A stretch of DNA of 64,000 nt. Source: Bugula neritina. Taxonomy: Eukaryota; Bryozoa; Gymnolaemata; Cheilostomatida; Bugulidae. Positions 1 through 64,000 of this stretch are shown piece by piece (the first letter of the stretch is position 1; each line of letters begins with the position of its first letter). The DNA is taken from contig OZ037768.1 in the NCBI GenBank assembly GCA_964035545.1, positions 233,501 through 297,500 of the forward strand, written 5' to 3'. The notes beneath the pieces are model-generated. The model searched no databases, was not told where the DNA came from, and saw only the letters and a list, made by a program, of their open reading frames with translations. The position numbers and the translations under genes were made by a program.

Positions 1-116
1 GTGAGGGGTAGTAGTTACCTTAACAGTGAGGGGTAGTAGTAGTTACCTTAACAGTGAGGACTAGTAGTAGTTACCTTAACAGTGAAGACTAGTAGTTGTT
101 ACCTTAACAGTGAGGA
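1..116 (-). repeat. 28-bp tandem array made of exon end plus 5' splice site
   Basis: Read on the minus strand, about four copies of a unit that joins the last exon bases CCTCACTGTTAAG to the donor GTAACTACTACTAGT. The first copy is the real exon end at 103. The array continues to the window edge. Confidence 0.85.
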
Positions 117-1551
117 CGTTTCTACGATTCCCCACTGAGGCGTTGAGTATTATCTGGGTGTAGTGGGTCGTTCTCTTCACTAAGATATCTGTTGTCTGAC
201 TGGCTGGTGATACCTCCTTATTGCTGGCCCCTAAACACCAGGACATGGAGCTGTATATCTACCCCAGTCTAGCACTAATTGGCATAAACTTGATTTAGAA
301 AAGTAAGTTATATTCAAATATCAAATTTCAAGAAATATGCAGCAATTGTGGATTTTCAACCATAGAAATGCCCTAAATTCAATAATTCAGACAGAACACA
401 GATCTTACCATGTCTAGTTTTATCAGACCCTGACTTTCTAGAGTTTTCAAGGGTAGGCTTGCTACTTCTAGAAGCTGATTTTCTAGAGTTTTCAAGGGTA
501 GGCTTGCTGCGTCTGGAAGTTGATTTCCTAGAGTTTTCAAGAGAAGGTTTGCTGCGTCTGGAAGTTGATTTCCTAGAGTTTTCAAGGGTAGGTTTGCTGC
601 GCCTGGAAGTTAACTGTTTGCTACGCCCGGAGGTTAATTTCCTTGAACTCACAAGTTTAGATTTTTTACGCTTGGAAACTGATTTTTTTGCAACTTCTCG
701 AACTGGTTTGCTGTGACTAGAGGTGACATAGTTGTTTAAATGAGATACTTTTGTAGGCCCCTGAGAAGCTGTTAGGTTGAGAGAACCAGCAGATGAGCTA
801 CGCGGGTTAGGATTGTCACCATAACAATTGTCAAGATGAGTTGACGTATTAGATGTGCTAAAAGGTGAACCCTGAGGAGAGGTTCCACTCAGAGAAGACC
901 TGAGGTGTCTATTATAAGGTTCCTGTGTAACACCCTGCGGTTGGATGTGTGAGGTGTTAGCTTTAGACTCTGCATGTGAAATATTCACATTAGTGTTTAC
1001 TGCTGGAATTCTAACAACTGAAAATATTAATATTCATTTAGAAACTTGTATATACAACTATTGATAGGCACACCAGCTTATATTCAACTCATATTCACCT
1101 ACTCATCAAAACACTAATACTCACCTAATTCAGCAGGTGCGTGCCTCAGTCTGTTAATACCCGGTTTTGATGCCAAGGGTCGCTCAACATTTTTTGCAGA
1201 ATGTTTTTTATCGAATGGCCACGTTAATTTAGAAGCATCGTCTAACATGCCGAATAACCTACGCCTGCCAGGCCTTCCTTCAACTCTACCAGATTCTTTA
1301 TGGCTGGACAAGGAAATTCCCCACAAGTGTTTATTAGGGAGAAGGTTATTTTCAGCTTCATCAACCAACCGCCGAAGTCTCTTGGTATCTCGCCGGTGGC
1401 TATTTTTGTTCCCTTTGTTCTGAGAATAGCTGAGGAATGAATTCTCTGTAGACTGGTGGAGTTTGCCTTCATCATTACATTTCTTACTCTCCTCCAACTC
1501 AAGCTCAACTCCGGGCTTCATTTCCCTGGCATCCACCCTTGTCCAATACAT
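103..1551 (-). CDS. Unrecognised basic Ser/Lys-rich protein, 5' part (runs off left edge)
   Basis: Three coding exons join in frame on the minus strand: 1125-1551 (phase 1 out), 409-1017 (phase 1 out) and 103-230 (phase 0 out). Donors are GTGAGT, GTAAGA and GTAACA; acceptors are TTTTCAG and TGTTTAG. The proposed start is the ATG at 1551 (MYWTRVDAREM), with an in-frame stop shortly upstream; an acceptor just before it cannot be excluded. The protein is rich in Lys, Arg and Ser. The second exon encodes four copies of a 15-residue repeat of the type SRRSKPTLENSRKST. The third exon ends NRRNVLTVK and its donor is the unit of the array at 1-116. I do not recognise the family and assign no function. 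The low-complexity basic composition would suit a nucleic-acid- or cytoskeleton-binding protein, but that is only a guess. Confidence 0.6.
425..605 (-). repeat. 45-bp in-frame coding repeat, four copies
   Basis: Period 45 bp (15 codons) inside the unrecognised basic protein. Each copy encodes SRxSKPxLENSRKSx. The copies differ at a few codons, mostly keeping Ser, Arg and Lys. Confidence 0.85.
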
Positions 1552-1569
1552 GTTACAGTTATTGAGCAA

Positions 1570-4500: not shown

Positions 4501-4611
4501 GTAACAACTGTGAACTCATAAGTCATTTAGCCAAACTCGTGGCACCACAGTTGTGCAGAGTAAAGTGAACAGCAACTCCTACTAGTTGAGAGAAAGTAAC
4601 AGGGTATTCCA
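1570..4611. other. Noncoding AT-rich stretch between two minus-strand genes
   Basis: I see no convincing exon. It holds a 36-bp repeat at 1673-1768, an (ATT/AGT)-rich low-complexity zone at 2200-2345, a run of about 17 C at 3567-3583, and a 15-bp array at 3892-3988 built on GTAACTCAAGTCAGT (about seven copies). Open frames at 2774-3043 and 3133-3318 lack splice context or family resemblance. Confidence 0.6.
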
Positions 4612-4746
4612 CAGGAGAAGGGGCTGGGGGTGGAGTAGGGGCTGGGGGTGGAGAAGGGGCTGGGGGTGGAGAAGGGGCTGGGGGTGGAGAAGGGGCTGGG
4701 GGTGGAGTAGGGGCTGGGGGTGGAGAAGGGGCTGGGGTGGAGTAGG
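4612..4746 (-). repeat. 18-bp G-rich array in the 3' region of the membrane-protein gene
   Basis: About eight copies of GGAGAAGGGGCTGGGGGT, downstream of the stop codon at 4853 on the minus strand. It would read as Pro-Ala-rich peptide but lies after the stop, so it is probably 3' UTR or flank. Confidence 0.75.
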
Positions 4747-4852
4747 GTAAATACAAGCTGCTGTCACAGTCATGGCAGCATATTTGCAATAGATTGCATA
4801 GAATATATAATGTATATTAATAGTCAACTTGTATATCTGTGACTGACTCATG

Positions 4853-8736: not shown

Positions 8737-9051
8737 CTTACATCTAAACTGTGTATAACATACACTGTGTTGACAAACAGGCATTCGTGTTAGACAGGAT
8801 TAATTACCATGTTACAGGAGTCAATGTTGTAACAGTAACTATTAATAAACAAATACTCCACTTCACCCTCACCTGCTGTCAGTTGCCGTAATGAACCGAC
8901 TTTGATGTCACTTTGTCCTTCTGCTGAATCAATGCAGTGTGTCATGTTTAATGATTTGGGAATCACATTGTATTGTTTATATGCATTCAGCTAATTATTG
9001 ATTTATATGTTCAATAATATTGTCTGTGATGTTAATAACTGAAGCATGTCT

Positions 9052-9222
9052 AGTAACTTACCCTTTGTTTAGTAACTTACCCTTTGTATAGTAACTTACC
9101 TTTGTCTGGTAACTTACCCTTTGTCTAGTAACTTACCTTTGTCTGGTAACTTACCCTTTGTCTAGTAACTTACCCTTTGTCTGGTAACTTACCCTTTGTC
9201 TGGTAACTTACTTTTATCTAGC
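9052..9222 (-). repeat. ~20-bp donor-like array upstream of the membrane-protein gene
   Basis: On the minus strand the unit is GTAAGTTACCAGACAAAGG, about nine copies. Each contains a strong donor (AAAGG|GTAAGT) and an acceptor-like TACCAG. The strand matches the gene that starts at 8736, so it may mark a 5' UTR intron. Confidence 0.8.
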
Positions 9223-10208
9223 AAACTTTGTGAATAGAATGTTCAACACACGAGGCTGGAAGTTGGCACTAAAACCATTCAAAGCAAGCACAAGAGGTAG
9301 AAGATTGTAAAGCGACAAAAATACACTGAACAAGCACACAGCTGCTACTGTAAAGCTGGTATTGCAAGGCTGGTAAACTGTGTAGTGTATTGTTTAAATA
9401 GCATACGCTATAACCACTAAGTATAAATAAAATCTTAGCATTTTCTGTTGTTACATTTTAACTGCAAAATATTTTTTACATGCTTGCTTCGCTTTAAAAT
9501 AGTCATCATATTTATTTATTTTAAGATTTTTATAATATAGATAATACAGTAATACCCTGAATGTACCTGATTGTATTGTAGGCTATATAGCTATATTTGG
9601 CATATGCAAAATGCATTCCAATATTAATTTCAATTCTATAAATAAACACTTAAAGGCTAATAATGCAAGTACATTATATAACTTGAAAATTCTTGCTTTG
9701 TGTTTAAAATCCACAAATAAACTTTTCATTCCAAAATGTTACATAACTTTTTCTAGTTTCAATAAAGCTACTAATGCTTAGATATTAGCCGCAGAGTAAA
9801 ATGCTTATTTGATAGAGAAATAATGGGTGTAGCACTTTCAAGGGGCACAGTATGTATGTCTTACAGATGAGGTTGTTATCAATAGATAGATAGATCATAC
9901 AATGTGCAATATTCTGTCATACCTAAAGAGTATTCCCAGTAATTTTACTATTTTAATAATATGCCAACTCCTACTGTTTGTTGACATCTACACACTATTT
10001 TACTCTCCACACTCCAATTATTACTGAAGAAGAATACTCAAACATATTATAGTAAAGTGCTGCACTAATGCTGGGGAGACAACTTCAACAGCTACTCAGA
10101 CAAAGCTTGTTTATCACTCAAAGTGACCATATATCATGCATACCAGCACAAAAAGCAAACAACACTGCAAATTACTTTAAACTACAAATTCATTTTTTAT
10201 CTGTGACG

Positions 10209-12896: not shown

Positions 12897-13110
12897 GAAA
12901 CTCAAGGAGTTACACAGTCAAGGAGTTACACAGTCAAGGAGTTACACAGTCAAGGAGTTACACAGTCAAGGAGCTACACAGCCAAGGAGTTACACAGCCA
13001 AGGAGTTACACAGTCAAGGAGTTACACAGTCAAGGAGTTACACAGTCAAGGAGTTACACAGTCAAGGAGTTACACAGTCACGGAGTTACACAGTCAAGGA
13101 GTTACACACT
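12897..13110 (+). repeat. 16-bp array in the 5' leader of the TRIM gene
   Basis: About 13 copies of CAAGGAGTTACACAGT end 6 nt before the TRIM start codon at 13116. The same frame is open upstream, but no ATG precedes 13116 in it, so I place the array in the 5' UTR. Confidence 0.85.
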
Positions 13111-13115
13111 CAACA

Positions 13116-17808
<4,693 letters not shown>

Positions 17809-36000: not shown

Positions 36001-39000
36001 ATATTGGTTGAATATTTCAGTATTTAGTATACAATATAACGTTATAGTAGCAATAGAGTGTTATCTAAATTTTTTTTTTGTATTTGATAAATACTATTGT
36101 AGAAATATTTCTATTGTTACTAATAATATAGTAGATGCATTGTTGTACTTGGTATAAAAATTCAATTGGATTGTTTGAAAAATTTCAGGCGTTCAGCAGT
36201 TTCTAGTGAACCCAAAACCAGAGTGGCTGGAGATAATGGACTTATCATAGTAAGTATATCATAGTAAGTATATCATAGTAAGTATGTCATAGTAAGTATA
36301 TCATAGTAAGTATATCATAGTAAGTATATCATAGTAAGTATGTCATAGTAAGTATATCATAGTAAGTATATCATAGTAAGTATATTATAGTAAGTATATC
36401 ATAGTAAGTATATCATAGTAAGTATATCATAGTAAGTATATCATAGTAAGTATATCATAGTAAGTATGTCATAGTAAGTATATCATAGTAAGTATATCAT
36501 AGTAAGTATATCATAGTAAGTATATCATAGTAAGTATATCATAGTAAGTATATCATAGTAAGAATATCATAGTAAGTATATCATAGTAAGTATATCATAG
36601 TAAGTATGTCATAGTAAGTATATCATAGTAAGTATATCATGGTAAGTATATCATAGTAAGTATACATATTATAGTAAGTATTGATGATATGACCCACATA
36701 GGGAAGATAACTTCAAGTCATAATATTTGATATGTTTCTAGTAATAAGTTGGAGAAACTTCCAGAATGGTTGTCAGACTGCAGTTTCCTGAAGAGACTGA
36801 ATGTTAGTAACAACAGACTGCAACGTCTGCCATACAGGTGAGTTATATAGTACAGGTGAGTTATGTAATACAGGTGAGTTATATAATACAGGTGAGTTAC
36901 ATAGTACATATAGTACAGGTGAGTTATATAGTACAGGTGAGTTATATAATACAGGTGAGTTATATAATACAGGTGAGTTATATAATACAGGTGAGTTATA
37001 TAATACAGGTAAGTTATATAATACATGTCTGTGTTTATTTCACCTCAGGCTATTCTCCGATGCACAGAGGTTAAAACAGTTGATAGCTGACCACAATGAG
37101 ATCCGAGAACTGCCCTCTGATATCTCTAACTCAGTTGTTGAAGAGATCAATCTACATCACAACTCAATAGATGAGTTACCTGAGGACTTTCTTAGTAAAC
37201 TCAACAAGTAAGTTTCAGCAATAATGTAAGTATGTGATAGTTTAAGTATATAGTATAATGTAAGTATGTGATAGTGTAAGTATATAGTATAATGTAAGTA
37301 TATAGTATAGTGTAAGTATATAGTGTAAGTATATAGTATAGTGTAAGTATATAGTATACAGTGTAAGTATATAGTATAGTGTAAGTATATAGTGTAAGTA
37401 TATAGTATACAGGGTAAGTATATAGCATACAGTGTAAGTATATATTATACACTGTAATTTGCATTCTAGGAGTAGCAAACCAACACACGGTTATTCTAAA
37501 TGATGTCATTTTATAAAATATCATAAATACAATTTCAATAAATGGCTGTTCCTAGAGTGATAAATGTGTTTACATATGCAGACTTAAAATACTGAATCTC
37601 TCTTCCAATGAGCTCACTTTCCTTCCTCCACTTAACGAGATTGAAGATCTGAACAAAGTGCATGAGCTCTACCTCACTCAGAATGGCTTGCAGGATGATT
37701 GTATAGAGGTCATTGCTGGATATCACAGGTTGAAGATTCTCCACTTGGCGTACAACGAGTTGACGTGTATCGACGAGAGGTAAACCCTTCATGTGTCTCT
37801 GTTCCACCCAGTTTACCGTCTCACTCATTTCATTCTTCTGCCCACTCATTTAATTTTATGGGATAATATACTAAGATAGTAGACTAAATACTGCAATCTA
37901 AATGCAACTAAACAGATATACATATATCATTCAGACTCGCTCAATCATTGGAACTTCTGCAAGAACTGAACGTATCAGGGAACCGTATCAAGACCCTTCC
38001 TAAGAACCTAGTGAATATGCCAGAACTTAGACTATTGAGAGCTCACTCTAATTTGTTGAAAACTCTTCCAGATCTCGCAGAGTCGTCTTCTCTCAAGGTG
38101 AGCTAACTACTTAACACTTGCTTGTCGTTGTCACAGTGACACTTGTCAGTCATGTTGTTCTATATGTGTCAGGCATTTGTCAGCTGTACAGCTATTTTGA
38201 CAGCTGTCAACTCTGTGTCACAGTGACACATGCCACTGGAAGCTGTCAGTAATATTCCAGTGATATGATGAGTCAACATAGTTATATCGGCACATGTGTC
38301 AGTCATTTTAACTGGTTAATTTGAATTTTACCTGTTATATTTTATTTAGAAGCTTTGCTATAAGTTTTCAGTCAAGATAAAAGTACCTGCCTATCATATC
38401 AGTTGTTATATATTTGTACCAATTTGTTTTCACTAACTAATCTATACAGTGCACGTTGTTATGTGTTGTAACATGTCGTCATGTTCTAGCACTTTGACTT
38501 GTCACACCGAGATGTTCATCAGGTATTTTGTTGACTACACTATGACATCACTTCCTCTTCTCTCTTCTACTCTTGCTAATGTCTAGTTTCTAGTTGACCA
38601 AACTAAAAGTTTAAATATATTTGAGTTAGTTTAATTCCCAAGACTTATGGGAAGGTTTAGCACTCTCTCATTGTGAAAGTTTTTTGGAACTCAATGGGTT
38701 TCAAGTTCTAAATACGATTAGGCACCAGACATAATTCTAACTCCCTAATTTTATATTGAAGATCTTTCATTACCACCACTTTTTGTATCACGAGAACGCT
38801 TGGGATGTACTAAATCTAAGTAGCAAAGTGTTTGTGTAAATTATTCTGTTATGTTAGATGTTTAAATAGCAACAAAAGCTATCAAATGTTTCCACACTCT
38901 TCTTTTAACACCTGCACAATCTAATATCTATCTACACCCTTCTTACCTCTCGGCACATTTACTTCTGCATTCCATAATATTGTATCACATAATACTGAAT

Positions 39001-42000
39001 TATATAATATTCTATGCGGTTTGTCTCTGTGTGACCCAGTCTTTGATATTATATTATATCTCAACTAGGTACTGGAAGTAGTAATATGGTACGTTGTAAC
39101 TAGGTACTGGATGTAGTAATATGTTACGTTGTAACTAGGTACTGGATGTAGTAATATGTTACGTTGTAACTAGGTACTGGATGTAGTAATATGTTACGTT
39201 GTAACTAGGTACTGGATGTAGTAATATGTTACGTTGTAACTAGATACTGGATGTAGTAATATGTTACGCTGTAACTAGGTACTGGATGTAGTAATATGAT
39301 ACGTTGTAACTAGGTACTGGATGTAGGAATATGTTACGTTGTAACTAGGTACTGGATGTAGTAATATGTTACGTTGTAACTAGGTACTGGACGTAGTAAT
39401 ATGATACGCTGTAACTAGGTACTGGATGTAGTAATATGATACGCTGTAACTAGGTACTGGACGTAGTAATATGTTACGTTGTAACTAGGTACTGGACGTG
39501 GCGTGTAACAAACTGCTCAGCATCTCCGCCAGTGAATTGGCCAGCAGCTCTCAACTCCATTCCCTGGACATGCAGATGACTCAGTTCTCTATTGACAAGA
39601 CGCAGATGGAGATAGTAAAGTATGTGTCAGGGGGTGTCAGTGGAGATAGTAAAGTATGTGTCAGTGGGTGTCAGATGGAGATAGTCAAGTATGTGTCAGA
39701 TGGAGATAGTCAAGTATGTGTCAGGGCTGTTATTGGGTGTGTCAGGGTGTTTCAGTTGACTAAATGCTCAGATGTGTATGAATTATACACTCTGTAGTGA
39801 TAGTTGGAGGTTATGTTGTATTAACATATATGATTGGCTGTTCACACAGGAAATCAAAGCAGATAAAGTCTGTGGATTCTTCCGGAGAGAACAAGGAGTT
39901 GTCCTCCTTATCTGGGACACTGGGTAGCTCTCAGTCTCTGTACAAGATCCCTAAGATATGTCAGTTGGGATTCGCGGAGACCAGCGGTACACGCAACAAG
40001 TATGTATCTGAAACTATGCTGTCCGTCTCACCGCCATCTGAGTGAGGGAATAACATCATATGCTAGTTTATCTTCTAATACATTGACTATAACATAGTAT
40101 TATATTATTTTGTAGTACTATATATTACAGGTTATGTGTTACTGTGCTACACCAACTGTCGTATATATTACAGGTTATGTGTTACTGTGCTACACCAACT
40201 GTCATATATATTACAGGTTATGTGTTACTGTACTACACCAACTGTCATATATATTACAGGTTATGTGTTACTGTACTACACCAACTCTCATATATATTAC
40301 AGGTTATGTGTTACTGTACTACACCAACTGTCATATATATTACAGGTTATGTGTTACTGTGCTACACCAACTGTCATATATATTACAGGTTATGTGTTAC
40401 TGTACTACACCAACTGTCATATATATTACAGGTTATGTGTTACTGTACTACACCAACTCTCGTACAAAGATCAAGACGAAGCTCTGTTTGCCATGTTCGA
40501 CGGAGGAAGAAACTGCGAAGTACCAAAAATCCTCAAGAAAATATTTCCCACAATTCTTGCACAGGAAATTGAGTCATCGGATAAACCCAATGTGTACCTG
40601 AAATATGCGTTTCTACAGGCACACAAGTTAGTAATAGCCGTGATGTGTGCAGTGGGTGTAATCTGTAGCAAGTTGCTATATTCAATCTGTAGAATAATTA
40701 TACAGTGATGTTTGTTTAATAAGTTTTGTTTATTTGTTTGCTGCTGATGCTGCCACAGTGATGTTCTCTTTATATCGCAGATCTCTGAAGAATAGTGGAC
40801 AGTATTTGGGGTCGTCAGCCCTCGTCTGTCATATCAGACGTAATGAAGAGAATAGTAAGAGGTTTTATCTTAACATCGCCAACTGTGGTGACACAGTAGC
40901 ACTCCTATGTAGAGCGGGGGAGCCTCTTGTCCTCTCACAGCAGCACACTGTAGTAGAGGACAGAGAAGAAGCTTCCAGAATATTCAGAACTGATGGAATC
41001 ATTACAGAGGTGAGTCACACTAAAGAAGTAGCCAATCATGTAACAGTATTTACTAGATGTAGCCTATCACAGACTGCCAGCTAATCAACCAACCAGATTA
41101 CTGTATCAGCTAGTACTGTGGTTACAGGAGAACAGAGTGAATGGTACGAGTATAACCACAAGAGCTCTAGGCAACTGCTATCTCTACCCTCATCTCATCC
41201 CAGAGCCCCACGTCCTGAAGAAGACTCTGAGACCAGAGGATCAGTTCCTTGTCATAGCCAACAGCAGTTTGTGGAGGTCAGTCTACTGTCCTACCTTCAG
41301 TCTGATGTACTCAGTCTACTGTCCTATCTTCAGTCTGATGTACTCAGTCTACTGTCCTACCTTCAGTCTGATGTGTTACTCAGTCTACTGTCCGACACTC
41401 AGTCTGATGTCCTCAGTCTACTGTCCTACACTCAGTCTGATGTACTCAGTGTACTGCTTGTAATACTCGCACTCTAACACCTCCCCTTCCATCTGCACAG
41501 GTTCCTGTCGTATAAGGAGGCTATTGAGGAGATACAATACATCGCAAATCCAGTAGTGGCAGCCAAACGTCTGCAGGATTTGGCCCAAGGATACGGCTGC
41601 AAGGAGAATGTCAGCGTGTTAGTCATTCAGTTCAACTGTAACTTCCTTAGCTCTGCCCAGAGTGTCGGAAATCTTTCCACAACGTCCGAAGGTGTTGTAT
41701 TTCACACGCTACAAAGGTTAGTGGGAATTAACTGCTTTATTTACTTGTCAAAGTATCGTTGTATAGTAGGTGGTTAATAGTTATCTCAATTAGCTGATTG
41801 TTGTATCTACACGTGACAGTTTTATATTATGAATCTTCATAAAAATAAGTAAATTTAAATTTTAATTAAAATGAAGCAAATATTTAGACTTCTAGTTTCA
41901 TATTAAATAATTCCAGTCTGAAAGATAAAGATACGGGACTGAAGTTGAGAAAGCGTCCAATCCCTGCCCCTCGTGCTTCTACTGGCAGGGTGAGTGTGAG

Positions 42001-44185
42001 TTTTACTATGAGTCAGTTTACTATACGTCTGATAGTCTTAGGACCTACGAATGTATCACCCTTTCTAACATTACAGGCTACAGACTCTATGTATTCCCTA
42101 GCCGATAATCTGACCGATGAGTGGGCGGGAAGTGAGTCTAGTCACAGTCATAGCTCTAGTATAGACAACACAGCTCAGTACGTAGAGGTGAGTCACACAT
42201 GAGTCATACTCCATGTCACTCTGTCTTGACACTTTGCCCTTGTTGTCTACCACCTGTTTGTTACTGTCACTTGTCCATTGTTATAGAGCGACTCTGTGTG
42301 AGGTAACTATTCGTTGCTTTGTTGTGCTTAGGCTGACCTAGATTTACTTTATTATGTAGGTCATGGGTAACTGTCACAATCCATCCACATTGAGATGCTT
42401 CTGTGAAAAACGCAGTCATTTTTAGCCAACCCACTTTATCACATGGGTGACGTGCTAAACTTATTCAGTTTGCAATTTAAACAAATATTTTTCAAAAAGT
42501 TAAAGATTTTACGAATAATAACGCAAGCATGCACGTTCTGTTAAAAGACATAATTTAGCAACTGCCACACAAAATGTATTTTAATTCATTTTGAATGTGC
42601 AAACTTTCCAGTCATCTCAGTGTGTGCTCCATTGTGTGATGAGTTGTTTCATTGACTAAGTTGTTCACAGAGATGTCTCAATATGGATTGACCTTTAGAC
42701 AGTATAAATTATTGTGTATTATTGTTTCCCGTCCCTTGCTTTCCCTTTCTCAGTGTAGTATACTACTATAACTGTGTTTGCAGCATCAAGAACCTGCTCT
42801 TTGTTGTCTGTGTGTTTCTCTATTACTGCAGTGTGACATGTCATGATTAGCACTTGCTCCTTGCTGTCACTCCACACTTTATGACTCATCCACATTAACT
42901 GTCTGTGTTGCTACAGGGCAGACTACCAACTCCTCATCTAAATAGACGCACGCACCTCCCTCTTCCAACCCCTCGTCAGAGTCCTTTTCACTCAGCAGAA
43001 ACTTTCACCACTTCGCAGCAGGGTATGGCTGCTGGTGCTCCCGGTGCTCCCGGTGCTCATGGCTCTCCCGGTACCCCGGGTGGTTACACTGATTCCACCT
43101 CAACATTGACCGACACTCAAGAAGAGGAAGAAATTTTCGACCATCAGATGTTTAAGACTCCCCTCTACTCTTCCGACACCAGACTGCTAGAGTTTGCGGA
43201 CTCTACTAGCACTGTGAACACAGTCGGGGTGGAAGGTCACCCGCCCTTAACTAAAAACTCTCTCTATCAGTCAGATACGAGGCTACTGAATCCTTCAGAG
43301 ATAGAGGTGAAGAGTACTAACTACTTCACTAGAGCTCCTCTGTCTGTCAGCTCCCTAGGTGAGTCTGACTACGGGGACTACCTGAACCTCCCCTTCTCTG
43401 ATAGCTCCCACCTCCACAGCTCTCAGTCTACAGTAACCAGTAGCAGACGTCCATACAGCCGACACGCTCACAGTCGAATACATGACCATGTCCAATCTCC
43501 TGACGGCAGCTACTTCTCTATAGACAGCGACGAAGGCAGCGACTTCAATCTGTATGAGAATATCGCAGATCTCAAACTGACGTCAGAGTTCTATGATTCG
43601 ACACCAACGAACTCTGCTGGTGATTTAACCTATCAGATGACACAAGACAAGCACTCTTATGGTAACTCAACCAATCAAATATCTTCTAACAAACAATCCG
43701 ATGGCGGTTTATTCAGTCCACCACCTTCGAGCAAACATTCCTATAACGAACCAACCAATCATACGCCTCAAAACAAACACATTCTAACCAATCAGACGGC
43801 TTGTAATAAAGTACAACTAAATACGGTTAATTTGTTCTACCAAGGCCCTTCAGATCAACCCACGCTTTCTGCTCAGTCTTCTGATAGGTCAATTCATTCT
43901 AGTCGAGCCAATCAGAGGCCAGATATCTCCGTGGTGTCTGCTCAGCCGAATGTAGCTAAAACTATTGAGAGATTTGAACTCAATAGCTCCGCCTCTAGTA
44001 GAGTCCCTCAGCCAATCAAAGTCCGCCATCATGATGTAACCAGATTTGAACCAGCATCAAAAAGAATCTCTAAATCCATCTCAACCCCAGCCAATAACGT
44101 GCATCACTTCAGTAACGGCAGCAGTGCATACGGCAGCGGCTCATTGGCAGTTAGCCAAGACTCTGATATTGACATCTACTTATGA
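27035..44185 (+). CDS. PHLPP: PHLPP-type PH domain and leucine-rich-repeat protein phosphatase
   Basis: Twenty-five exons, every phase consistent, 1692 aa: 27035-27203, 28634-28791, 29194-29357, 29782-29888, 31100-31282, 32020-32154, 32254-32438, 33128-33303, 33536-33682, 33810-34044, 35740-35959, 36189-36249, 36742-36837, 37049-37207, 37582-37779, 37935-38097, 39489-39619, 39850-39999, 40432-40626, 40781-41009, 41128-41276, 41501-41716, 41917-41989, 42077-42187 and 42917-44185. Order: Ser-rich N-terminus; RA-like domain (about 164-265, RRLDPYEHPLVLQNEYL); PH domain (about 275-367); about twenty LRRs (368-895); PP2C-like domain (about 935-1200, FAMFDGGRN, ANCGDTVALL, RVNGTSITTRALGN); and a 480-residue disordered tail ending DIYL. 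Family members dephosphorylate AKT and PKC hydrophobic motifs at membranes. Several canonical PP2C acidic positions differ (RALGD to RALGN; DGxWD-like site is NSSLWR; final DN is EN). Exons 3 and 4 both use the weak donor GTTCGT. Identity is firm; activity is uncertain. Confidence 0.93.
27197..27890 (+). repeat. 63-bp donor array at the end of PHLPP exon 1
   Basis: Eleven copies of a 63-bp unit. Each contains AGAAG|GTATATTATGCAG, matching the real junction GGAAG|GTATATTATGCAG at 27203/27204. Because 63 is a multiple of three, long ORFs run through on both strands; these are not genes. Confidence 0.93.
28450..28665 (+). repeat. 73-bp acceptor array before PHLPP exon 2
   Basis: Three copies of a 73-bp unit that contains the polypyrimidine tract, TTACAG and the first exon bases GTGGGGGTAGTCAC. 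The last copy is the real exon start at 28634. Confidence 0.9.
29052..29200 (+). repeat. 47-bp acceptor array before PHLPP exon 3
   Basis: Three copies of GTAACATTTGACAGTGGTGT plus a TGTGTACTCAGGGG end. The final TGTACTCAG is the acceptor of exon 29194. Confidence 0.88.
29395..29600 (+). repeat. Irregular GTATAGTATC(AT) repeat in PHLPP intron 3
   Basis: Mixed 5-bp and 10-bp units of GTATC and GTATAG, starting about 40 nt after the exon end. Confidence 0.8.
29900..30158 (+). repeat. 26-bp array in PHLPP intron 4
   Basis: About ten copies of TATTACTAGTATATGTATAG plus TTAATA, beginning 12 nt after the exon end. Confidence 0.88.
32163..32250 (+). repeat. Short GTAACTACARYGTGTA repeat spanning a 99-nt intron
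   Basis: About four copies of an ~18-bp unit almost fill the short intron between PHLPP exons 6 and 7. Its unit ends are acceptor-like (ACAG, CTAG). Confidence 0.7.
32449..32862 (+). repeat. 25-bp array in PHLPP intron 7
   Basis: About 17 copies of TTATCAGTTCAGTTCTACTC plus ATTAG, starting 10 nt after the donor. Confidence 0.92.
33318..33512 (+). repeat. TATAT(T/G)-type low-complexity repeat in PHLPP intron 8
   Basis: 5-bp-based ATTAT/ATTGT repeat filling most of the intron. Confidence 0.85.
34085..35462 (+). repeat. CACTCTGT 8-bp array in PHLPP intron 10, split by a transposon
   Basis: The array covers 34085-34668 and resumes at 35420-35462. All frames are open through the left part because the repeat lacks stops. 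Confidence 0.9.
34669..35419. mobile_element. MITE-like transposon inserted inside a tandem array
   Basis: Terminal inverted repeats of about 27 bp: CACGGGCTTTCCATG at the left, and CACCGGCTTTCCATG as the reverse complement of the right end, continuing with CCGATCTnAG. Length is 751 bp. TAT flanks both sides, consistent with a 3-bp target duplication in the array sequence CTCTATCACTCT. Subterminal AGATCGATCT palindromes are dense. There is no transposase ORF; superfamily unknown. Confidence 0.82.
36236..36690 (+). repeat. 14-bp donor array at the end of PHLPP exon 12
   Basis: About 32 copies of ATCATAGTAAGTAT. The real junction is TTATCATA|GTAAGTAT at 36249/36250, so every copy is a complete strong donor. 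Confidence 0.95.
36829..37024 (+). repeat. 18-bp donor array at the end of PHLPP exon 13
   Basis: About eleven copies of ACAGGTGAGTTATATAAT. The true exon end is CATACAG|GTGAGTTAT at 36837/36838. Confidence 0.94.
37205..37450 (+). repeat. 17-18-bp GTAAGTATATAGTAT array after PHLPP exon 14
   Basis: About 14 heterogeneous copies start at the true donor (AACAA|GTAAGTTTC at 37207/37208) and keep GTAAGTAT in most units. Confidence 0.88.
39062..39500 (+). repeat. 35-bp acceptor array before PHLPP exon 17
   Basis: About twelve copies of a unit ending TTGTAACTAG and beginning GTACTGGATGTAG. The real exon starts TAACTAG|GTACTGGACGTGG at 39489. Confidence 0.94.
39600..39730 (+). repeat. Donor array containing PHLPP exon 17 coding sequence
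   Basis: About four copies of AGATGGAGATAGTAAAGTAT plus GTGTCAG. The first copy contains the true exon end ATAGTAAA|GTATGTG at 39619/39620. The reading frame stays open across the array. Confidence 0.8.
40119..40470 (+). repeat. 43-bp acceptor array before PHLPP exon 19
   Basis: Eight copies of a unit holding TATATATTACAG|GTTATGTG and about 25 further exon bases. The last copy is the true start at 40432. All three forward frames are open. Confidence 0.95.
41277..41455 (+). repeat. 33-36-bp array at the donor of PHLPP exon 21
   Basis: About five copies of CAGTCTACTGTCCTACCTTC plus AGTCTGATGTACT, starting at the donor GTCAGTCTACTG. Each copy contains an acceptor-like CTACCTTCAG. Confidence 0.85.
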
Positions 44186-47240: not shown

Positions 47241-47320
47241 GATATTATACACATATATATGTAATAAAAGCAGATGAGCAAATAGTTGGAAGTGAGAAAA
47301 AGTGAGATACGGTGAGAAGC

Positions 47321-50300
47321 ATGAAGACCTCCTATTTGTTTAACGAAGGAGGATTCAGAAGAAGAGTGCAGGGTAATGGAGGACGGAAACTGGCCATTGA
47401 CGTCTTGCCAGAAGATAAAATGGTGAGGATTTTTTACTAGCTGAAAGTGTTAATCTGCTTCCTTTGATCTCTAAGCTTGACTTCCTGCAGTTAATACAAT
47501 TTGTGCCCCAGACTGTCTTAAAGCCAATAAAGTCAGTCTATTTGAACCCCTTCAGACAAATGAATTATGTTTAGCTTGTCATATCTCCCTTCTCTAGTAT
47601 CATAAAACGGCATCAATATTTCTCAGTGAGTGGCAGCTGCCTGGGGGCGGAGCTAGCAAGTGTTAACATCTAACTGTAGACATATATATAAATACAAGTA
47701 CAGATATAAATATACTATACGTAGCCATAAACATACATTCTGTCTTTTCTTCAGGCATTCCGTCTCATGTTGGAAGCGAGTCAAGGACACGGTAAGTTGA
47801 TCTGCTGAATAAATTGGCCAGTGTAAGTATGTATGTCAGTGTAAGTATGTATGTCAGTGTAAGTATGTATGTCAGTGTAAGTATGTATGTCAGTGTAAGT
47901 ATGTATGTCAGTGTAAGTATGTATGTCAGTGTAAGTATGTATGTCAGTGTAAGTATGTATGTCAGTGTAAGTATGTATGTCAGTGTAAGTATGTATGTCA
48001 GTGTAAGTACATCTGTGTAGGTACATATATATCTGTGTAGGTACATATATATCAGTGTAAGTATGTATGTATGTCAGAGTAAGTATAATTAGTCCTATTA
48101 AATATATTGTAAGGGAGCAAATCTTAGTATATATGTATTTGCGTTAGTGTAGACACACTATATGTAGTTTAGTACAAGAAATCCCTTTCTGTACGGTCAG
48201 GTATATAGAATAGCAACCAGAAGGACATGGCTGGTATTTCTGTAGGGATGGCTGGTATTTCTGTAGGGATGGCTAGTATTTCTGTAGGGATGGCTAGTAT
48301 TTCTGTAGGGATGGCTGGTATTTCTGTAGGGATGGCTAGTATTTCTGTAGGGATGGCTGGTATTTTTGTATAGGTATGGCCGGTGTTAAAGAATGGCTAC
48401 AGACAAAGTTCAGTTCCATGGAACTCGTACAAACAGTGAATAAAACTACAGAAAGACGAGGTCTCTGTAAGACCAGCTCCGCGCTAGCAGGAGTCATCAC
48501 CCCTGATACAGTCCCCGACTTCGTTATTCCCTCGGCTAGTTTCAGAGCTGTAAGAAGCAGTAAGAGTTTGGATGTAGTAAACAACAACCATTCCAGGGAC
48601 ACAAAGAGTGTGAGCTACGGGGAGCTGTCCACCATCCCTCAAGGGAGAATCAATGTGAGTATAACTCTCAGTCTATCTATATGCTGAGTAGATTCAGGCT
48701 AATTGACAGTAGTTGGTATCTAATTGGGGTCACAGCAATTACAACATTTCTATATTTAATATTTACTATTTATAGATACTCAGTATGCCATGCAGTTGTG
48801 TTTATTTATATTCAGCTGTTTGCTGCACTGTCAATGAGTCCACTATTACACCCATTACCCCATAACGTAATGCTAGTGTAATTAGAACACTATCGCTACA
48901 TCTTACAGTGTAACTTGATGAATGTTCCTGTCTGAAGGGAGTAGGGAAGGGATGTCACATCTGAAGGGAGTAGGGAAGGGGTGTCACATCTGAAGGAAGT
49001 AGGGAAGGGGTGTCACATCTGAAGGGAGTAGGGAAGGGGTGTCACATCTGAAGGGAGTAGGAAAGGGGTGTCACATCTGAAGGGAGTAGGGAAGGGGTGT
49101 CACATCTGAAGGGAGTAGGAAAGGGGCGTCACATCTGAAGGGAGTAGGGAAGGGGTGTCACATCTGAAAGGGGTAGAGAAGGGGTGTCACATCTGAAGGG
49201 AGTAGGGAAGGGGTGTCACATCTGAAGGGAGTAGGGAAGGGGTGTCACATCTGAAAGGGGTAGGGAAGGGGTGTCACATCTGAAGGGGGTAGCAAGGGGG
49301 CGTCACAGTCAAACCAAGGCCTAAACTTGTAATAAATATAGAAGAACTATGAATATAAATAGCAATATCTAGTTCATTGACATTATCACTGCAAGGGGGG
49401 TAGGAATAACATAAAAATGATATAATGATAATTTAGTGCTTGAGAATAAAGTTTCAAATTGTAAAAGCATACTTTAGGTGTACATATATATGTATTTTTT
49501 AAAATAACTTGTAAAGCTGTTTATGGTTTAATCACTATAAAATATTCTAGTCATGGCAATATTTTCTAGTGAGGGCAGAATATTGACTCATGTTTAAGAT
49601 AAGCTTACGTAGTATAAAGATAAGCAACTGACCGAAAAAGAAGTTGCACAGACACAACAACAACAGTATTTGATGTGGTGAAACTGAGAACAAGTTTGTT
49701 GTTGGAGTGTTTAATAACTGACATTTATATTATAATACTAGTTAGCTTGTCATTGAGCAGCAGGTAAAGTGCAGCAGGTAAAGTGCAGCAGGTAAAGTGC
49801 AGCAGGTAAAGTGCAGCAGGTAAAGTGCAGCAGGTAAAGTGCAGCAGGTAAAATGCAGCAGGTAAAGTGCAGCTACACAAACAGTATATTTACTATAACC
49901 AGCTCTCTCTTATATCTGAAGATATCAATAGGTTTCCCCTGAGATTTCCCTCTACGTCTGCACCATCCATAATGGAAGTAATTGATTAACAGCTTGCACT
50001 TTCACTTCTTTCTGGACTAAAGTTTATATTCTACTACTTCCTGTCTAATATAACATACCTTCAAAGTTGTCTCCCCTCTCGTGGTACTATAATACAGCCT
50101 TCAGCCCACTAACCATCAGCATTATACATAGATACAACTGTATGTTATATAGCTGGTAATATGGTAATATATAGCTAGTAATGTGGTAATATACAGCTAG
50201 TAATATGGTAGGTAATATATTATAGCTGGTAATACATAATATATCACAATGGTCTAGATAGAGAAGTTAAAAACCTATAATTAAATGCACTAAAATTAAT

Positions 50301-53300: not shown

Positions 53301-54689
53301 GTTAGGGGAGGTGATTCTACCCCTCCAAACTCTTGGATTAGAGCACGAGGAAGAAGTGAGAATGTGGCGTGACCTTGACCCCAAGTCCATATATCAGGTA
53401 AGATACGACCTTGGAACTAGTCGCATGATCTGCGAACCAACCTGGTCATCCAACTCCGTCTGCTTCTGTGTCAAGGCCAACAAAGTGAAGCTTTTGTAAT
53501 GTGAACAGTGACGTATCAGCCTTGGAGTTGTCATGCTCCGTTATCGCTTGCCATTTATTACAGCATTTGAAGAGTTTTATGACAGACATATAAAGTATTT
53601 TGTTAAAACTTGCATTATTTACAATCAACCACAAATTTATTGCAGCTATTTCACTCAGTTTTAGAAGGGAAATTATGGCTGCTAAGTTTTGCCACATAAT
53701 TCTTTCAAATACAACTTTGCGTTTCTTTGAAGGAGCTCGGAGAGCTGAACGTAGCTATCAAGTTTGAGCCACGAGAAGATAGTCTGCAAATCAGAGTCAA
53801 TGAAATCAGCGGACTACCAAAGTACGCCCTTACTGGACTTCCTGGTAAGCCTTCTGCTATATTCTTGATATCCGAGTATACTCAGTAAGTCTGCATTTAG
53901 TAGAGATTAGCTCAGTTGGCTGCCACTTGAAATTTTAAACTGGGGAGATAACTCAAAAATAGGATGCTTTTAGTTGGAAATTGTATGATAATTTTATAGC
54001 TGCATAACCTGTGGTAGAGTGTAACTTACAGTACAATGTAACTTACGGTACAATGTAACTTACAGTACAAGATAACTTACAGTACAACGTAACTTACAGT
54101 ACAATGTAACTTACAGTACAATGTAACTTACAGTACAACATTACTTACAGTACAATGTAACTTACAGTACAACGTAACTTACAGATACGTACGTGAAAGT
54201 CATAGTAAGGCAAGATGGAAAGTCAACAGTTAAAAAGCAAACGAAGCTCAGGAAGAACACCTCCCACCCAGTCTATAATGAAACCTTCGCTTTCTCCATT
54301 TCTCCCAAGATTGATGACTTGAGGTTGGTTTGAGATATTAACAGCTGAATAATCATTCATTTCCAGTCAATTGCTTTAAACCAGCTATTGAATGTAAAGT
54401 TTGAAACCCTGTCAAAGAATATCACAGCATCTTGCACTCACTTTGTCGAGTGTATTTAGTGAAGATGTATTTCACACATGTACCTTGCAGGTACACATCC
54501 ATAGCCTTGGTAGTGTTGAACCACCAGACAATAAGGACGGACACTGTCATAGGCGAGGTATTGCTAGGGTACGGGTCGACTACAGATGATGAGTACATCC
54601 ATTGGTCCAACATTCTCAACAGCACCAACCACTTTGTACAGTACAAACATCAGCTGAAACCCCCCTCAAAGCATAGACTAGTAGCGTGA
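47321..54689 (+). CDS. Double-C2-domain protein with C2CD4-like N-terminal motifs
   Basis: Ten exons, phases consistent, 647 aa: 47321-47422, 47755-47791, 48374-48654, 51070-51190, 52157-52327, 52448-52737, 52906-53397, 53733-53844, 54185-54323 and 54491-54689. Residues 1-340 are mostly disordered, with two short motifs that recall C2CD4/NLF proteins: [12 protein letters not shown] (88-99) and [17 protein letters not shown] (203-219). C2A (about 355-498) and C2B (about 499-640) follow, with the typical ending [19 protein letters not shown]. In C2A the usual DPYVK calcium loop reads NINSFIKV; in C2B it reads LPDTYVKV. Most Asp ligands are missing, so calcium-independent membrane or protein binding is likely (inference). 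There is no transmembrane segment. TC2N or synaptotagmin-14/16 relatives are alternatives. AATAAA at 54808-54813 is a likely polyadenylation signal. Confidence 0.87.
47810..48080 (+). repeat. 18-bp GTAAGTATGTATGTCAGT array
   Basis: About 13 copies start 25 nt after the donor of C2-gene exon 2 (GGTAAGTTG). Every copy contains GTAAGTATG. Confidence 0.92.
48228..48383 (+). repeat. 21-bp acceptor array before C2-gene exon 3
   Basis: Seven copies of ATTTCTGTAGGGATGGCTGG. The true junction TTTTTGTATAG|GTATGGCCGG at 48373/48374 is the last, slightly diverged copy. Confidence 0.9.
48935..49310 (+). repeat. 29-bp array, about 13 copies
   Basis: The unit is close to GGGAGTAGGGAAGGGGTGTC plus ACATCTGAA. 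Confidence 0.92.
49761..49875 (+). repeat. 14-bp GCAGCAGGTAAAGT array
   Basis: About eight copies, each carrying CAG|GTAAAG, at once acceptor-like and donor-like. Confidence 0.88.
51790..52128 (+). repeat. 26-bp array, about 13 copies, before C2-gene exon 5
   Basis: The unit is CTGATCACATGACTGTAGTA plus CATGTA. Each copy contains ACTGTAG, and the array stops about 30 nt before the acceptor. Confidence 0.92.
54015..54190 (+). repeat. 17-bp acceptor array before C2-gene exon 9
   Basis: About ten copies of TACAATGTAACTTACAG. The last ends in the true acceptor AACTTACAG|ATACG at 54184/54185. Confidence 0.93.
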
Positions 54690-55086
54690 AACTGAGGCTA
54701 GTTCTATTTCTGCTAACTTAGTACATGCTATTTATTATTAAGTTGTCGATCACTCCACACTGTGCATTGGTTATACACTGAGTTATATTTATTCATCAAT
54801 GAAAAGCAATAAATATATAAAGATAAGCAAATGAAACTGCAGGTTCTATTTACATTACTAAATATACACACAAACAGAAAGATCCAGTGAAGTCTGCATT
54901 ACTAATAGCAGACGATGAACTAGCTAATAGATGAGTCATGTTAGGAATGGAGATGGATTGTAGAACATAGAGTTGTCTTCCCGTACAGACTGGTCGCTGA
55001 TTTACAGGTTACTCTGTGCTAGAGCTGCGCTTAGCCTGTGAAGTTAGTTGAAATTAGCATGTCTGCGGGCACAGAACCAGCACCCC
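54690..55086. other. Tail-to-tail gap between C2 gene and RUVBL1
   Basis: Only 397 bp separate the two stop codons. AATAAA occurs on the + strand at 54808 and TTTATT (AATAAA on the minus strand) nearby, so the two 3' UTRs may overlap. Confidence 0.55.
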
Positions 55087-60464
<5,378 letters not shown>

Positions 60465-63400
60465 ATGAGCGCAGAGTCTATAAATGAAGAGGAAATTCAG
60501 TCTGGGGAACATGAAAGTGAAGACACAAAAGATGAGGGTGGCGTTAGTTACCAGCCCCCTATATCCGCAATTCCTCCTCGAGTTACTCTGACCGAAGAAA
60601 GTCAAATGGAAGTATCTGCTAGCCCTGCCTTTCAATGCCTCGATGATGTAAGTTATGCTATTAGCAAGTAGTATGATAGTATTATTAGTAGTACTAGTAG
60701 TAGTGGTAGTATTAGTAGTAGTACTAGTAGTAGTAGTAGTAGTGGTAGTGGTAGTGGTAGTATTAGTAGTAGTACTAGTAGTAGTAGTAGTAGTAGTGGT
60801 AGTGGTAGTATTAGTAGTAGTACTAGTAGTAGTGGTAGTATTAGTAGTAGTACTAATAGTAGTGGTATTACTAGTAGTCAATCTAATAAAATGTTAGGCA
60901 TAGCTTCAAGTTCAAAAACTGGAATATATTTACTCTTGTCAGTACATTATATTGAAAATGTATATGTGTAACTATCCTCTGTTCCTCATCAATAATACAA
61001 TTCAAATACATCTAGTTTCTGCCATAAACATGGAGCTTGAAATCTATCTTTCACAATGCTGTGTGTTACTGACTATTAGCTGAGTGGGTCAATTACAAAC
61101 TTGAATTCTTAGGATTATGATAAATATATTTTATTGTGCACAGAACATGTTAACTAGTTGAGTAGTATGTAAAGAGAGAGTTAACTCCTGTATACATAAA
61201 ACATTAGCTACTTAGCTAAATGCTTTTCATAACTTTTTCTCCAAAAAGTGTGTATAGAAACATTGCTATAAACCAGCACATGATGATGCTACGAGATTCT
61301 TCTTGAATTCTGCACTGAACCAGTGAGTGCAAGGAGCTTTCGAACCGACAGTAAATCAGACGCATGTTCAATGCTGTAGGCTGTCCTAATGAGTTATACT
61401 TGCTGTTTGTCTGTTGCAGTTGTTCAATGAAGGCCGTCTGACAGGAACTCGAGTGGCACAACTGAAAGCCAAGTACTCAGAGCTGCATGACAAGCTGAAG
61501 ACGTAAGAATATAGAGTAGAAATACCAACTATTATGACGTACTGTAAACAACTTCTGCTATCAGCACTTTTATAAAGGCTTTGATTTACTGTATCAGTCA
61601 AGATTCTCGTGGGGAGACAAGTTCTACGATAAATAAGTTAGAAAGTTGAATGATACTTTATCAATGGCTCAGTTTTCCTGTTTAACAGAATAGGTTTTAT
61701 AGGAACCTCAGTTTCTATGTGTGAGTTGTACAGCCACAGAGGAGATAACTCTAGACATGGTGATGTCTTGATAGCTGCTATATTTGATGTACTGAGAAGA
61801 TTGTTACTGCAATGCCACAGATTCTCACATTATTCCTTCTATGATGCGCCATGAACCCCTTGTATTGTAACCTCATGTCTCATTTCAGAACAAGGGAAAG
61901 TGAATCCCAACTGCTGCAGCAAGCCAAACACTACACAGCGACTTTAGAGACTCAAAATCAAGATTTGGAGAAAGCAGACAACTTCCCAGAAGGCACTGAC
62001 TCAGACGTGAGTCGCATGAGACAACAACTCCTCAAGTATAGAAATGAGTTGGCACAGATAGAGGAGAGACAGTATCAACACGAGTATAAAATAGAGTGGT
62101 AGGTTTAGGTTCTATGTCTATGCTGTGTTGAGTGAGTGAGTGAGTGAGTGAGTGAGTGAGTGAGTGAGTGAGTGAGTGAGTGAGTGAGTGAGTGAGTGAG
62201 TGAGTGAGTGAGTGAGTGAGTGAGTGAGTGAGTGAGTGAGTGAGTGAGTGAGTGAGTGAGTGTAACGTCATATCTATGTCTATGATATGCTAATCATATT
62301 CCTGTAGCTTAGAAGAGGATAAGAAGCTGATGGACAGAGAATACGAGAGAATGCCCAAGAAGGAGGTGAGATACTGTCCAATAGGTGAACAGCTATCACT
62401 CTGAGTGTGAGAGTAGACTGTCACTGAACTGTAAGACTAGAGTAAAGCTGGTGAAGGTCTAGAAGTAGTGGCATGGGTTGTGAAGAACATAGCAATAAGT
62501 TAGAAATGTAACTCATTTCAGTCAGTAGGCTGGCTGCTATATATTTGGTGTTTAGGATAATCCTAAAATTACATATCAATAGTTTTCAGTTTTTGCTAAG
62601 CAGTTTGCATTTAGAATTTTATGTCAAATGTTTTATCAATATACAACCTTACTGCTGAATGGCAAAGTAAAGTTTACTATGATGACATGCTGCCATTCCT
62701 TCAGGAAGTGGAGAAGAAAATCAAGGAGTTGCAGGCGACGTGTGAGGAATTGAGAAGGGAGATAACTCAGAGACAGGCGGAAGCTAAGAACCTAAAAGAA
62801 GACTTGGATAATAAAAATAGAGAAATACAAGCAGATAAAAAAGCATATGAAGAGGCAAATGAAGAAAAAGAAAGGCTAAAGGTAACAGCTTTATCTTTCT
62901 TTGGCTGTTAGGTCGGTGGTATTGATGGTTGAATAATTTCATTTTTCACAATAATCTGGCAAGAGTTTACTATATTATCATTTGGTTACTATACTACTGT
63001 CTGGTTACTATACTGTCTGGTTACTATACTACTGTCTGGTTACTATACTGTCTGGTTACTATACTGTCTGGTTACTATACTGTCTGGTTACTATACTACT
63101 GTCTGGTTACTATACTGTCTGGTTACTATACTACTGTCTGGTTACTATACTACTGTCTGGTTACTATACTGTCTGGTTACTATACTGTCTGGTTACTATA
63201 CTGTCTGGTTACTATACTGTCTGGTTACTATACTGTCTGGTTACTATACTGTCTGGTTACTATACTGTCTGGTTACTATACTGTCTGGTTACTATACTGT
63301 CTGGTTACTATATTGTCTGGTTACTATACTGTCTGGTTACTATACTGTCTGGTTACTATACTACTGTCTGGTTACTATACTGTCTGGTTACTATACTGTC

Positions 63401-64000
63401 TGGTTACTATACTGTCTGGTTACTATACTGTCTGGTTACTATACTGTCTGGTTACTATACTGTCTGGTTACTATACTGTCTGGTTACTATACTGTCTGGT
63501 TACTATACTGTCTGGTTACTATACTGTCTGGTTACTATACTGTCTGGTTACTATACTGTCTGGTTACTATACTGTCTGGTTACTATATTGTCTGGTTACT
63601 ATACTGTCTGGTTACTATACTGTCTGGTTACTATACTACTGTCTGGTTACTATACTGTCTGGTTACTATACTGTCTGGTTACTATACTGTCTGGTTACTA
63701 TACTGTCTGGTTACTATACTGTCTGGTTACTATACTGTCTGGTTACTATACTGTCTGGTTACTATATTGTCTGGTTACTATACTGTCTGGTTACTATACT
63801 GTCTGGTTACTATACTACTGTCTGGACTATACTGTCTGGTTACTATACTGTCTGGTTACTATACTGTCTGGTTACTATACTGTCTGGTTACTATACTACT
63901 GTCTGGTTACTATACTGTCTGGTTACTATACTGTCTGGTTATACATGTAGGGAGACCTGATTGAAGTGAAACAAGAGCCAATATCTATCGCCAAGGAAAG
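60465..64000 (+). CDS. CCDC146: CCDC146-like coiled-coil protein, 5' part (runs off right edge)
   Basis: Six exons, phases consistent: 60465-60647, 61420-61502, 61889-62098, 62308-62365, 62705-62881 and 63951 to the edge (about 253 residues). The N-terminus is acidic and disordered. From about residue 62 the sequence is heptad-like and rich in Glu, Lys and Gln (VAQLKAKYSELHDKLK, RMRQQLLKYRNELAQIEER, CLEEDKKLMDREYERMP, VEKKIKELQATCEELRREI). The string of segments, including LRQQLLKY and the EKADxFP-type motif, recalls CCDC146, a centriole and axoneme-associated protein of ciliated cells. Another long axonemal coiled-coil protein is possible. The last visible exon reads GDLIEVKQEPISIAKE and is cut by the window end. 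Confidence 0.75.
60668..60882 (+). repeat. AGT/GGT trinucleotide repeat in the CCDC146-like intron 1
   Basis: Interrupted (AGT)n with GGT, ATT and ACT variants; it begins 20 nt after the donor GTAAGTTATG. The long Val/Thr ORFs across it are artefacts. Confidence 0.9.
62127..62262 (+). repeat. (GAGT)n tetranucleotide tract
   Basis: About 33 uninterrupted GAGT units in intron 3 of the CCDC146-like gene. Confidence 0.95.
62988..63945 (+). repeat. 16-bp array of ~58 copies before the last visible exon
   Basis: The unit is CTGTCTGGTTACTATA with a 19-bp variant (extra CTA). It ends within 10 nt of the acceptor ATACATGTAG at 63950. The 320-340-residue ORFs across it are repeat artefacts. Confidence 0.95.

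Follow-up and report, generated by a model that had tools for sequence, protein, structure and literature searches.

Does some process aimed at splice sites build tandem arrays at exon-intron junctions, or do minisatellites in small introns reach those junctions by themselves? A 64,000-nt stretch of the Bugula neritina genome (the window) raises this question. It covers positions 233,501 to 297,500 of chromosome 4 and lies 0.23 to 0.30 Mb from the start of that chromosome. Several of its introns contain tandem arrays whose unit is a copy of the adjacent exon-intron junction. We lean toward the reading that the arrays are minisatellites of the mirage type, located where this bryozoan genome is rich in repeats, "mirages" being the name given to such junction arrays in amphioxus. 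A process aimed at junctions is not required by the intron data. A milder bias linked to junctions, chiefly to donors, remains conceivable and receives some support from genome-wide word counts.

Junction-containing arrays of the window

An array was counted as junction-containing when at least 3 exonic nt lay within its periodic region. Eleven arrays were retained under this rule, starting at 13299, 15779, 27200, 28448, 29055, 36243, 36832, 39063, 39603, 40119, and 48227. The original prediction had given at least fifteen introns. It was correct that the units copy the adjacent junction, be it a donor or an acceptor; counts of exact junction words reach 27 in one array. It was also correct that the units are unrelated to each other. 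They are 14 to 73 bp long in the eleven arrays (14 to 80 bp in the prediction). The junction-spanning arrays are from three plus-strand genes instead of the predicted five genes on both strands, and the arrays of the minus-strand gene RUVBL1 contain no exon sequence. The other minus-strand gene (about 4.8 to 8.7 kb, array 9047 to 9221) stood outside this count. Six of the eleven arrays fall within PHLPP introns that belong to the ortholog-aligned set described below; at 29055 and 40119 the spliced aligner picked other boundaries. The junctions at 13299, 15779, 27200, 28448, and 48227 are from open reading frames (ORFs), splice consensus, and reading by eye.

The PHLPP-like gene is on the plus strand and extends from 28634 to 44182, counted from exon 2. 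It contains RA, PH, LRR, and PP2C parts. The gene has 23 introns in the set, and 13 of these have arrays. The Watersipora ortholog (P0121) matches at 64% over 100% of the query. The spliced aligner agrees on 19 of the 23 introns, and our own reading was kept for the other four.

Donors of this gene are affected at four places. The array at 36243 to 36681 has the unit TATCATA/GTAAGTA (the slash marks the junction). The unit is 14 bp long with 7 exon nt, and it is present in 30.5 copies with 96% matches. The array contains 27 exact copies of the junction word TCATA/GTAAGTA. The exon end at 36250 reads TTATCATA/GTAAGTAT, and the array unit reads TATCATAGTAAGTA. The array at 36832 to 37025 has the unit ATACAG/GTGAGTTATATA (18 bp, 10.3 copies, 6 exon nt). 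It contains nine exact TACAG/GTGAGTTA words and takes up 188 nt of the 211-nt intron at 36838 to 37048. The array at 39603 to 39724 has 17 exon nt in its unit, and GATAGTAAA/GTATGTGTC is present in two exact copies. The array at 27200 to 27885 is at the donor of the first intron. Its 63-bp unit (10.9 copies) starts with GAAG/GTATA, includes about 4 exon nt, and yields nine exact junction words; exon 1 is outside the ortholog alignment.

Acceptors of the gene are affected as well. The array at 39063 to 39496 has a 35-bp unit in 12.4 copies with 8 exon nt, and the exon head GTACTGGA is in the unit. It contains 11 exact copies of the acceptor junction GTAACTAG/GTACTGGA. The array at 40119 to 40458 has a 43-bp unit in 7.9 copies, made up of 12 nt of intron end and 27 to 31 nt of exon head. 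Its final copy is the real exon, which starts at 40432 with GTTATGTGTTACTG. The word ATATTACAG/GTTATGTGTTACTGT is present in eight exact copies that precede or form the exon, and the spliced aligner takes one copy as an additional small exon. The exon part of the unit encodes LCVTVLHQL. Watersipora PHLPP, which carries LCVTVLHQLSYKD, has LCVTVLHQL too, so this part of the unit is exon and not intron drift. The array at 28448 to 28657 has a 73-bp unit in 2.9 copies with 40 nt of intron end and about 24 nt of exon head. Exon 2, which follows it, is aligned to Watersipora; intron 1 itself lies outside the intron set. The array at 29055 to 29196 abuts an acceptor (47 bp, 3.0 copies, 3 exon nt) that is among the four introns where the aligner differs. 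The acceptor junction word GTTACAG/GTGGGGGTAGTCAC is present in two exact copies in a window array. One further array of this gene, at 37221 to 37449 with the unit ATAGTGTAAGTATATAGT, begins 13 nt past a donor and does not overlap the exon.

Two donor arrays are in a RING-like (TRIM-type) gene on the plus strand. Matches to RING families range from E 2.4e-5 to 0.025, all below the Pfam cut-offs. The array at 13299 to 13569 has the 23-bp unit TGTAG/GTAAGTTACAGTACATAC in 11.8 copies with about 5 exon nt, as read from the ORF and splice consensus. It contains 11 exact copies of TGTAG/GTAAGTTA. The array at 15779 to 16003 is a probable donor array. Its 44-bp unit joins some 20 nt taken from the preceding ORF to GTAAGTTATT, a junction we place from the ORF. 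Two other arrays are close to these. A 16-bp array of 13 copies (12902 to 13113) is immediately 5' of the likely start codon, perhaps in the 5' untranslated region. An array with the unit CTACTAA (13902 to 14044) stops 11 nt short of a predicted acceptor. Its repeats may be branch-site-like words, given the resemblance of TACTAAC to the branch-site consensus of yeast.

The remaining junction array is an acceptor array on the plus strand at 48227 to 48370. It has the unit TATTTCTGTAG/GGATGGCTGG (21 bp, 6.9 copies) and contains six exact copies of TATTTCTGTAG/GGATGGC. It is ahead of an exon predicted at 48374 by the gene model. A C2-domain gene on the plus strand, also from the gene model (C2 in the exon at 52906), has an array at 54020 to 54184 that runs up to a predicted acceptor. 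Its 17-bp unit contains AACTTACAG, is present in 9.7 copies, and does not overlap the exon.

Placement of arrays in 109 introns

The prediction held that chance placement would not put arrays on junctions. We collected 109 introns from RUVBL1, PHLPP, CCDC146, and eight CCT genes, all of them GT-AG after two boundary corrections. They contained 45 arrays in 37 introns; the other 72 were free of arrays, with a median length of 222 nt. Arrays with a period below 7 or fewer than 1.9 copies were left out before counting, as were PHLPP intron 1, all genes without homologs, and several CCT introns with untrusted ends. In the null model, each intron was stripped of its array, and units were placed along the remainder with uniform probability. 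This collapsed-intron null was used because introns leave little room for arrays.

Nine of the 45 arrays overlapped an exon by at least 3 nt, and 9.8 were expected. Three were on the donor side and six on the acceptor side, and six of the nine were in the window. Where 100 nt or more of the intron lay free (32 arrays), 6 overlapped an exon (3.4 expected). Junction overlap is no commoner in these introns than random seeding predicts, and the claim about chance placement was not borne out. Nine-mers across junctions had a nearby tandem copy in 2.5% of cases at donors and 3.9% at acceptors. The figures for 9-mers 100 to 200 nt inside were 23% and 19%. Weak arrays (Tandem Repeats Finder [TRF] score 30 to 49, n = 28) were within 15 nt of a donor once and of an acceptor twice, with 0.9 expected.

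The prediction also placed the junction motif always on the coding strand. This is automatic where an array overlaps the junction, and the rule does not extend to the remaining arrays. The first 34 arrays, with CCDC146 left out, were used for the motif test. In the 28 of these without exon overlap, the sense strand had the better donor score 14 times. The units did not contain a splice motif beyond chance on average across the 34 arrays when compared with shuffles (mean P 0.49). An annotation-free donor motif was found in 5 of 90 units (1.8 expected from shuffles), and another threshold gave 1 versus 0.2.

The coding region of RUVBL1 (pontin) is on the minus strand at 55087 to 59367. It has seven introns, and arrays that stay clear of the exons nearly fill five of these. 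The TRF arrays are at 55265 to 55728, 55849 to 55942, 56076 to 56195, 56747 to 57844, and 58122 to 58236. The five introns are 117 to 1146 nt long, and 23 to 48 nt remain once the array is removed; in intron 3 the array takes up 1098 of 1146 nt. The arrays approach the donor to within 2 to 27 nt, and none has exon sequence by the TRF borders. The protein read from the window exons can be aligned end to end with human RUVBL1; the sole gap is one residue long and lies three residues away from a junction. RUVBL2 was considered for this gene and rejected by alignment to the human sequence. Watersipora subatra is the closest among the named matches (91%). The same seven introns were recovered with the Watersipora protein by a purpose-written spliced aligner.

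The 455-residue RUVBL1 protein has a 100% identical full-length match in public protein data. The match is from a 3,426-nt contig with the source code "lgn," a label that we read as marking assembled sequencing reads. In the genome, the coding region takes up 4,281 nt, so the shorter contig is most likely a spliced transcript; the alternative is a shorter allele with a predicted gene. Given the identical protein, the array-filled introns of RUVBL1, whose arrays hold no exon sequence, are most likely removed correctly. No near-identical sequence from the same species was present among the best 120 matches each for PHLPP and CCDC146. We infer that the exon-adjacent splice site is used in the genes besides RUVBL1.

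CCDC146 is on the plus strand from 60465 to the window end at 64000 and on to at least 73221 in extended coordinates, from ortholog alignment. The same 17 introns were obtained with the Tubulanus and Lingula orthologs, and five are within the window. TRF arrays are at 62129 to 62262 (period 4, uncounted) and 62995 to 63941, with others past the window end. The eight CCT genes were found by Pfam PF00118, blind to arrays, and 62 of their introns were kept. These introns are from a small gene finder trained in this work and reading by eye, with no ortholog alignment behind them. One further TCP-1-like locus had no arrays and is outside every count. A CCT8-like gene (locus L036, 4006 to 4362) has about 19 unit copies with the strong sense donor TACAGGTGAGCTACTAGTA. 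This array begins 12 nt past the true donor, which lies outside it.

Origin of the arrays

Mirage-type minisatellites would arise here in a few steps. Generic repeat-forming processes (slippage, break repair, or unequal exchange) would tandemly duplicate short intron segments, more in some parts of the genome. The duplicated segments would then expand and homogenize. With introns small relative to unit and array, arrays would often reach the splice site, and some first duplications would span it. Duplications within exons would be lost to selection. Those that span a junction would survive, as an intact exon-adjacent site would remain and the other copies would stay intronic. We infer both this mutational mechanism and the neutrality of the arrays.

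Repeats are unevenly spread. The window has 114 TRF rows, and merged tandem arrays cover 24.5% of it. Over the next 20 kb past the window the cover is 28.6%, and in 200 kb of chromosome 1 (10.0 to 10.2 Mb) it is 2.5%. Array density per non-array kb is 2.7 in introns, 0.11 in exons, and 1.4 elsewhere, where "elsewhere" takes in introns of other genes. Tandem arrays are nearly absent from exons, and their spread across the genome is uneven.

Several results weigh against a generic origin and would fit arrays born near donors through a junction-linked mutational bias. Transcription or splicing would make the intron start fragile (e.g., an R-loop or a polymerase paused at the 5' splice site). In its wider form, this explanation has minisatellites of this bryozoan lineage born or kept preferentially at junctions, chiefly just past 5' splice sites and at chromosome ends, via a transcription- or splicing-coupled step. 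Introns would then grow from donors, and splice-site arrays would be a standing source of exons, as a duplication in Watersipora hints. We consider the bias itself rather unlikely, and the wider form is equally tentative.

Of 45 arrays, 18 began no more than 15 nt from the donor (8.1 expected). This excess, like the other edge counts, comes from small numbers and a handful of genes, some of them in the window that raised the question. In introns with at least 100 nt free, 7 arrays were near donors and 6 near acceptors, with 1.6 expected for each. The CCT genes alone, chosen without regard to arrays, had 4 of 10 near donors (1.0 expected; P 0.005). The mean relative position in the intron was 0.31 instead of 0.5 for the first 34 arrays.

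Closeness of repeats to splice sites in small introns must be judged against the little room left. When the last 30 nt of the intron, the room where the branch site and tract must stay, were barred to arrays, the donor excess went down to 18 versus 14.2 (P 0.018). Donors in roomy introns still had 7 versus 1.9 with this bar. The acceptor side had 9 arrays within 15 nt (8.1 expected). CCDC146 tilts the other way, with 5 of 11 arrays near acceptors (2.2 expected) and 3 of 11 near donors. No donor excess was found for 14 arrays in predicted introns of chromosome 1 and the window, outside the homology set (2 versus 1.9). The weak arrays are not enriched, and the junction words are cold. The comparison of array edges with splice sites, which the prediction had proposed, gives a mixed picture: an excess at donors that shrinks under the 30-nt bar, an excess at acceptors in roomy introns but not overall, and none in predicted introns. 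Of the recurrent splice-site-duplicating process it proposed, the repeated amplification of junctions stands; targeting is not required, and the donor edges allow a milder bias.

Words were counted in the 215.8-Mb primary assembly of 295 contigs; an alternate haplotype, GCA_964035465.1, is also deposited. The donor word CAGGTAAGT has 2675 copies, with 447 same-strand pairs 3 to 33 nt apart (16.7%). For comparison, a small set of three control words with identical letter composition gave 4 of 840 (TGAATGGAC, 0.5%), 55 of 1363 (TGGACAGTA, 4.0%), and 132 of 1757 (ATGACAGGT, 7.5%). The last is not a clean control because CAGGT is within it. A few long arrays weigh heavily in these rates because pairs, not loci, were counted. 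The higher array density in introns must supply part of the lead of CAGGTAAGT. The raw contrast of 447 donor pairs with 4 for the reversed word was dropped as misleading and replaced by the rates per copy with two further words. A second donor word has 2485 copies genome-wide.

The CAGGTAAGT pairs form 25 loci on chromosomes 1 and 2, the two listed in full. The pattern matches were grouped into loci by eye; 12 of the 25 are single pairs, and gene context was not part of the count. Twenty of the 25 are within 4 Mb of a chromosome end, where 23% are expected (P 3.5e-9). The figure for ATGACAGGT is 7 of 20 loci on chromosomes 1 to 3 (P 0.005 against the donor word). Since end clustering is weaker for ATGACAGGT, ordinary chromosome-end minisatellites do not fully account for the donor arrays. 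Single CAGGTAAGT copies show no crowding toward the beginning of chromosome 1: the first 100 extend to 8.44 Mb, about the genome mean.

The Watersipora duplication is in PHLPP at about residues 932 to 963. It contains LGFAETSGSRNNRLLA and then MGCSETNGQRNKLCVT, a diverged 16-residue tandem repeat of the exon tail. It is at the junction RNK/LCV, where B. neritina has an acceptor array. It looks like an exon-tail duplication turned coding, but a gene-model effect may produce it instead. It suggests that a junction copy can become exonic.

Selection could instead retain arrays beside splice sites, with the repeats aiding exon recognition (e.g., U1 on many donor copies, or enhancer-like repeats). 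We regard this as improbable. It would fit the edge excess at splice sites and the 27 exact donor-junction copies in one intron. It would also fit the strand of strong donors, since units with a donor at or above the lower quartile of true donors numbered 6 of 34 on the sense strand and 0 of 34 on the antisense strand, though in three of these six cases the array itself covers the true donor. The average unit has no splice motif beyond chance, as given above, and copies past the true donor are competing sites with no obvious benefit. That the arrays made the introns, by tandem duplication of an exon stretch containing AG/GT to give introns that are array end to end, is very improbable: some introns are nearly all array (RUVBL1 intron 3 and PHLPP 36838 to 37048), and a related route is proposed in the mirage paper (PMC3087553) with the potato case below as an instance (PMC4974935), but only 7 of 45 units contain AGGT in the sense orientation and array-free introns are the majority.

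Known systems, genome setting, and meaning

The prediction knew of no named system, and one exists. In PMC3087553, mirages are minisatellite-like duplications of intron-exon boundaries in amphioxus globin genes. The same paper cites mirages of amphioxus Adh3, with 10- to 72-bp units, unstable length, and normal splicing, and of other loci too. PMC3902484 extends them to PGBD5, with TnC cited. In the literature searched, arrays under this name were found for amphioxus only, and none was described for bryozoans, bryozoan genome papers included.

The Bugula units likewise span a donor or acceptor with exon sequence, and both 5' and 3' boundaries are hit (donor 3 and acceptor 6 of nine arrays). 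The repeats are minisatellite-like, with 14 to 73 bp in the eleven window cases against the 10 to 72 bp given for Adh3. Interior units are nearer the consensus (0.953) than the end units (0.936 and 0.913) in 23 arrays. Bugula differs in being from another phylum (Bryozoa), in having several cases per gene and in neighboring genes, and in having up to 30.5 copies. The mirage features tested fit 9 of the 45 arrays. The remaining 36 are ordinary minisatellites within introns, and several of these adjoin a splice site.

The arrays also resemble ordinary intronic or subtelomeric minisatellites. The units are unrelated with high unit identity, and the arrays are inside introns and outside genes and uneven along chromosomes. 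They differ in that part of them take in exon and splice site, and in that donor-word arrays are more end-clustered than those of one control word. Potato RdRp is a case of intron gain by tandem duplication (PMC4974935). There, as in Bugula, the duplication is over the intron-exon boundary and the splice signals are copied along. The Bugula copies differ in that they appear to remain inside an existing intron.

Other features were noted in the window and assembly. A 45-bp array of four copies on the minus strand (431 to 611) forms 15-residue repeats that are open within a 225-codon ORF, and from this ORF some arrays may be coding. An element of about 740 bp at 34672 to 35415 has the inverted ends GGGCTTTCCATG and CATGGAAAGCC, with GATCGATCT motifs within. 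It interrupts a CTCTGTCA array, which continues beyond it. It is possibly a terminal inverted repeat element with a TATCAC target duplication. Small contigs such as C188, C173, C64, C139, and C195 contain kinase and chaperonin genes with many in-frame TAA and TAG codons and few TGA codons. Kinase and chaperonin matches on chromosome-size contigs are mostly without in-frame stops. The small contigs look like ciliate-type contamination of the assembly with reassigned stops.

In our favored reading these are mirage-type arrays in a bryozoan, a phenomenon already known from amphioxus. The main correction is methodological, in that repeat-to-splice-site closeness is to be set against the room left in small introns. 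If the pattern holds genome-wide, as the 25 tandem-donor loci on two chromosomes would allow, these arrays would be natural experiments on spliceosome choice among up to 30 near-identical adjacent sites. They would also allow introns to be followed as they grow and, possibly, as they give rise to exons.

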